NCBI GenBank assembly: GCA_003649495.1
Contig: QMRZ01000002.1
Location: 1 to 33,661, forward strand
Direction of reading: 5' to 3'
DNA length: 33,661 nucleotides
DNA from: Thermoprotei archaeon
GTDB taxonomy: Archaea > Thermoproteota > Thermoprotei > Thermofilales > Thermofilaceae
In this document: positions 13,930-14,577 of the stretch, piece after piece
Numbering within the stretch: the first letter of the stretch is position 1
How the letters are laid out: each line of letters starts with the position of its first letter
Made by a program: the position numbers and the translations under genes
The notes under the pieces: generated by a model
Database searches by the model: none
Told to the model about the DNA's origin: nothing
The model's input: the letters and a program-made list of their open reading frames with translations, nothing else

Positions 13930-14035
13930 TGCGGGGGCCGGGATTCGAACCCGGGCAGGCCTACGCCAGCGGAGCCTAAGTCTGGGCCCGGGCAGTGCCG
14001 GTCCGCCCCCTTTGTCCTAGCTCGGGCACCCCCGC
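13930..14035 (-). tRNA. tRNA-Leu(UAG) with 21-nt intron; CCA encoded at 13927-13929
   Basis: Minus strand GCGGGGGTGCCCGAGCTAGGACAAAGGGGGCGG[ACCGGCACTGCCCGGGCCCAG]ACTTAGGCTCCGCTGGCGTAGGCCTGCCCGGGTTCGAATCCCGGCCCCCGCA-CCA: acceptor GCGGGGG/CCCCCGC, T-arm CCGGG-TTCGAAT-CCCGG, class II variable arm, anticodon loop CTTAGGC. Confidence 0.95.
13982..14002 (-). other. tRNA intron, non-canonical position (about 30/31), BHB motif
   Basis: GGGC-GGA-CCGG-cactgc-CCGG-GCCC-AGA: 4-bp central helix GGGC/GCCC between two 3-nt bulges GG|A and AG|A; removal gives GCGGA-CTTAGGC-TCCGC. Confidence 0.85.
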
Positions 14036-14202
14036 CACCTTTACTGCATAGGCAGCATTTCAAAAGCCTTTTCCCCTCCACTCACCCTCATTGACTCACC
14101 ATGGGAGCGGCGGTGTCGACCAAATGCCTTCCGATCACCGCTCACCGTAACTCTGTTCTCTCACTCACCGCCGCCTCTTACCGCCGACAGCGATGTTATT
14201 AA

Positions 14203-14212
14203 GGTTTTTAAG
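14203..14212 (+). promoter_or_regulatory. TATA-like box for the C/D-box sRNA candidate
   Basis: ggtttttaag, about 30 nt upstream of the C box. Confidence 0.5.
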
Positions 14213-14237
14213 AGGGAGGGGGCATTCCTAGACTTGC

Positions 14238-14286
14238 GTGATGATGGTTTCTGGTGCTGAAAAGTGATGTTGGCTTGATTGGCTGA
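14238..14286 (+). ncRNA. C/D-box sRNA (2'-O-methylation guide) candidate
   Basis: C GTGATGA (14238-14244), 12-nt guide TGGTTTCTGGTG, D' CTGA (14257-14260), spacer AAA, C' GTGATGT (14264-14270), 12-nt guide TGGCTTGATTGG, D CTGA (14283-14286). Confidence 0.8.
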
Positions 14287-14289
14287 GCT

Positions 14290-14574
14290 CTACTCTAGGA
14301 GGCGCGAGACTGACACCACGTCGATCTGGCTCACGCCTGGAGCCTCAGCTAACCTCCTCTCAAGGTCTGACGTACCCCCCTCTATATCCTCAGGCATCGC
14401 AACCCAGACGTACACGGCGTTTATCCCGAATGCGACAGGCTCGACTCTAGTTTTGAGGACCTCGTAGGTCTCCGGCGGTAAGCTCCTCTTAATCGCGTCG
14501 ACTATCTTCTCTGGGGGCGTCTCCACGTCCTCCGGCAGCACCCTCACAATAGCTACTACACGACCCACGGCCAT
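14290..14574 (-). CDS. Elongation factor 1-beta (aEF1B)
   Basis: VGRVVAIVRVLPEDVETPPEKIVDAIKRSLPPETYEVLKTRVEPVAFGINAVYVWVAMPEDIEGGTSDLERRLAEAPGVSQIDVVSVSRLLE. ATG at 14574 preferred; GTG at 14577 possible. Confidence 0.93.
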   Translation of the reverse strand: MAVGRVVAIVRVLPEDVETPPEKIVDAIKRSLPPETYEVLKTRVEPVAFGINAVYVWVAMPEDIEGGTSDLERRLAEAPGVSQIDVVSVSRLLE

Positions 14575-14577
14575 CAC

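Follow-up and report, generated by a model that had tools for sequence, protein, structure and literature searches.

The window, by which we mean the whole stretch of 33,661 nucleotides (33.7 kb) analysed here, carries at 14238-14286 of the plus strand an element with the architecture of an archaeal C/D box sRNA. The terminal box C (GTGATGA, consensus RTGATGA, 14238-14244) is followed by the 12-nt D' guide TGGTTTCTGGTG (14245-14256), the internal box D' (CTGA, 14257-14260), a short D'-C' spacer of 3 nt (AAA, 14261-14263), box C' (GTGATGT, 14264-14270), the D guide TGGCTTGATTGG, also of 12 nt (14271-14282), and the terminal box D (CTGA, 14283-14286). A 2-bp GC/GC basal stem adjoins boxes C and D, and the mature sRNA is predicted to extend over 14236-14288 of the same strand, in keeping with the match to our family model (14236-14289) and with the Rfam matches, which begin at 14234 or 14235 and end at 14288 or 14289. 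A TATA-like promoter element (ggtttttaag, 14203-14212, plus strand), which would direct transcription, is situated about 30 nt 5' of box C. When the sequence was read again, the boxes, guides and spacer that an earlier sequence-only reading had given were exact to the base and its TATA-like box was found where it had been placed; its proposal, an archaeal C/D box sRNA of symmetric build that has a promoter-like element to itself, is supported.

The gene called aEF1B in that reading occupies 14290-14577 of the minus strand, with its stop codon 3 nt from the end of box D, and the description of the sRNA as convergent with aEF1B was right for the window's genome. Several other elements were observed in the window. 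Another C/D-like sRNA, whose boxes are degenerate, is located at 14118-14170 of the minus strand (GTGAGAGA-ACAGAGTTACG-GTGA-GCG-GTGATCG-GAAGGCATTTGG-TCGA); in 23S, the guides of this RNA match GUAACUCUG and CCAAAUGCCUU in the helix 69-71 region, and its relatives adjoin aEF1B in several genomes (L004, L011, L014, L019, L021, L029). Downstream of it on the same strand is a tRNA gene (13930-14035, Leu-like, with an apparent intron), which was missed by ARAGORN and scored 33.7 bits with the Rfam tRNA model. A weaker C/D-like element (ATGAGGA ... CTGA ... CTGA), obtained with a loose pattern, is present at 2630-2677 of the plus strand, and its guides have weak rRNA matches only.

A strict C/D regular expression matched the window once, at 14238-14286, and gave no match in 100 dinucleotide-preserving shuffles. 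The closeness of the element to the stop codon of aEF1B (3 nt), and the 7-8-bp outer stem that the 81-nt region can form in fold prediction, would also suit chance C/D-like words in the 3' flank of aEF1B, or a 3' UTR element of that gene such as a terminator. However, the absence of the strict pattern from all 100 shuffles and the conservation of the element elsewhere, away from aEF1B, argue against this origin, and the fold energy of the 81-nt region was no better than that of shuffles (z 0.60), so we consider its probability practically negligible; a structured 3' UTR or terminator was rejected for want of a fold signal. The Rfam search at gathering cut-offs reported nothing for the element. 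At a lax threshold the best Rfam C/D model was snoPyro_CD (RF00095), the C/D box sRNA of Pyrococcus, which aligned end to end with 32.5 bits, under its gathering score of 45 bits (E 4e-5 in a search of 421 bases). The element resembles snoPyro_CD in its boxes, which align over the whole length, but differs from it in the guide sequences, and it represents an RNA gene that Rfam overlooks at its cut-off.

Both guides were scanned against the 16S and 23S rRNA of relatives, with 23S genes from 17 relatives (two of them incomplete) and with E. coli numbering mapped on the K-12 23S. Because the window's own genome, an 81%-complete draft placed by kinship in the family Thermofilaceae, has no assembled 16S or 23S rRNA, the targets were read from the relatives' 23S. 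The D' guide forms 10 Watson-Crick pairs with 23S ACCAGAAACC, with one G-U pair beyond and a G-G mismatch adjoining box D', and its N+5 nucleotide is the A set off in GACC-A-GAAACC (A825 in the 23S of G003, E. coli C673). The D guide forms 10 Watson-Crick pairs and one G-U with 23S CCAAUCAAGC, and its N+5 nucleotide is the U set off in CCAA-U-CAAGC (U943 in the 23S of G003, E. coli U790). An A-U pair stands at N+5 for both guides. These are the nucleotides that the sequence-only reading had derived, the last A of CACCA (GACCA in the rRNA, the mismatch being only the one beside box D') and the last U of CCAAU. The check which that reading had suggested, a search of the organism's own rRNA, failed on the unassembled rRNA of this genome, and succeeded with the 23S of relatives. 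16S was rejected as the target, since both guides match it less well (9.6 and 8.2 vs 10.3 in 23S).

Both target sites are identical in every Thermofilaceae 23S covering them, and in the 23S of more distant classmates all differences fall outside the ten pairs or on the last pair of the D guide. The two targets are 118 nt apart in domain II of 23S; PMC4644070 counts the domain II helices 35/35a of 23S among the archaeal methylation hotspots. A shuffled single guide scored as well in 12/400 and 8/400 trials, so that either match, taken singly, would arise by shuffling with a probability of 2-3%, which would leave room for a genuine but orphan C/D sRNA, or one that targets tRNA or another RNA, with rRNA matches due to chance. 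Since the two targets lie within 118 nt of each other and are conserved, a chance match is unlikely. Moreover, almost every matching nucleotide is invariant across 15 copies of the sRNA, and other genomes carry each guide in different sRNAs; on these rRNA comparisons we regard an orphan or a guide for other RNAs as highly improbable. The earlier suggestion of new targets or an orphan guide gives way to two guides that each form 10 bp at a conserved site of 23S rRNA; the apparent orphan becomes a guide for which two 23S targets can be named.

When the two guides were each searched for as a pattern, relatives gave paired matches, each within a full C/D element, and the pattern matches L134, L140, and L142 were rejected as lacking the box architecture. 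With a sequence model, the double guide was detected in 12 of the 17 family genomes, several of genus g6 among its carriers, and also in G017 and G021 of the order and G061 of the class, the G061 copy, which is no part of the model, being recovered at 49.2 bits; G180, of the same phylum, has a variant copy whose D' guide carries one change (44.5 bits). The model did not detect the double-guide sRNA in the other 5/17 family genomes, two of which are at least 93% complete. The sRNA defines a double-guide family in Thermofilales. A full sRNA copy was also observed at 5653-5700 of L141, a MAG contig titled Woesearchaeota (B72_G16), whose genes look untypical for Woesearchaeota; no wider range is claimed from it, because the contig is possibly misbinned.

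In the 15-copy alignment the guide cores GGTTTCTGGT (D') and GCTTGAT (D) are invariant, as are GATGA of box C, TGA of box C', and CTGA of box D, while box D' keeps GA and varies in its first two bases, and spacers and flanks vary. The two nucleotides adjoining box D differ among members, and the D guide is one nucleotide shorter in two of them, in which the methylation would therefore shift to the neighbouring C. In 13/15 members a TATA-like hexamer starts between -33 and -28 relative to box C (base shuffles: mean 0.4, maximum 3 members). Within this family the window's copy has one of the lower model scores (55.1 bits, family range 54.7-63.2), the nearest thing to a sign, and not a direct one, that it might be a decayed pseudogene in the window's genome. 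Yet each of its four boxes equals the consensus or comes close to it, the target matches of both guides are intact and the TATA-like box is present, and such decay is hardly credible.

Among the member loci tested, aEF1B is near the sRNA only at the window's locus, and hence we attach no conserved meaning to the convergent arrangement. Conservation at the syntenic locus, which the sequence-only reading had offered as a means of refutation, is a poor test because the conserved RNA occupies other loci in relatives: strong conservation of the RNA was borne out, and conservation of its place was not. Synteny with aEF1B was likewise rejected as a conservation test, the aEF1B of relatives being sometimes adjoined by another C/D sRNA.

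The same genome encodes the proteins of a C/D RNP, with adjacent genes for fibrillarin (E 2.7e-100) and Nop5 (matched as Nop, E 8.4e-77) on contig C9, and to our knowledge L7Ae is universal in archaea. Judging from the sequence, we put at about 94% the probability that 14238-14286 is a genuine, ordinary, stand-alone archaeal C/D box sRNA gene whose product guides 2'-O-methylation at two domain II sites of 23S. Expressed from the promoter-like element onward, the transcript would fold into a C/D k-turn and a C'/D' k-loop and would be bound by L7Ae, Nop5, and fibrillarin. The D' guide would then direct 2'-O-methylation of the A in GACC-A-GAAACC (E. coli C673), and the D guide that of the U in CCAA-U-CAAGC (E. 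coli U790). Because both guides match conserved 23S sites, the sRNA most likely directs two ribose methylations in ribosome assembly.

One long-range helix of domain II consists of the strands ACCGAGC and GCUCGGU, whose pairing is backed by compensatory changes to ACCGGAC/GUCCGGU in L034 and to ACCGGGC/GCCCGGU in L045 and L046, and the two target stretches reach into the ends of these strands. While bound, the sRNP would keep several base pairs of the helix from forming, and because the ends of both strands are overlapped, binding of the sRNA may delay or chaperone the closing of the helix in 50S assembly. A chaperone role for archaeal C/D sRNAs is proposed in PMC4644070, with which this reading is in line. 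A further and tentative step, which we think unlikely but worth stating, is that selection acted on the two guides jointly, for keeping the ACCGAGC/GCUCGGU strands apart and then releasing them, the sRNA being mainly an assembly chaperone whose pairing of guides was fixed in Thermofilales, with both guides split between sRNAs in other orders.

Each guide was also found with other partners. In f9 (probably Pyrobaculum-like) and some f13 genomes (L162-L164, L167, L169), the C/D sRNAs share the D guide of the window's sRNA, as GCTTGATT adjoining box D with the same 23S target, but differ in the D' guide, ATGGGAACG, whose complement in 23S, CGUUCCCAU, lies about 30 nt upstream of the D target; one f13 genome (L173) has GCTTGATT and ATGGGAACG in swapped positions. 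The C/D sRNAs of other Thermoproteota families (L178-L183) share GGTTTCTGGT with the D' guide of the window's sRNA, but carry it as the D guide, one nucleotide before the D box and with the same 23S target, and with a different D' partner, GGCTAGAT, which matches 23S AUCUAGCC just downstream of the D' target of the window's sRNA. These sRNAs clearly illustrate the re-pairing of guide modules across Thermoproteota with their targets unchanged, and guide-module exchange is described for archaeal C/D sRNAs in PMC4644070. Compared with the sRNAs of that seven-species catalogue, as far as its text presents them, the window's sRNA has the same boxes, two guides and short D'-C' spacer, the same close dual targets near a 23S hotspot region and the same exchanged guide modules, and is no different in kind.
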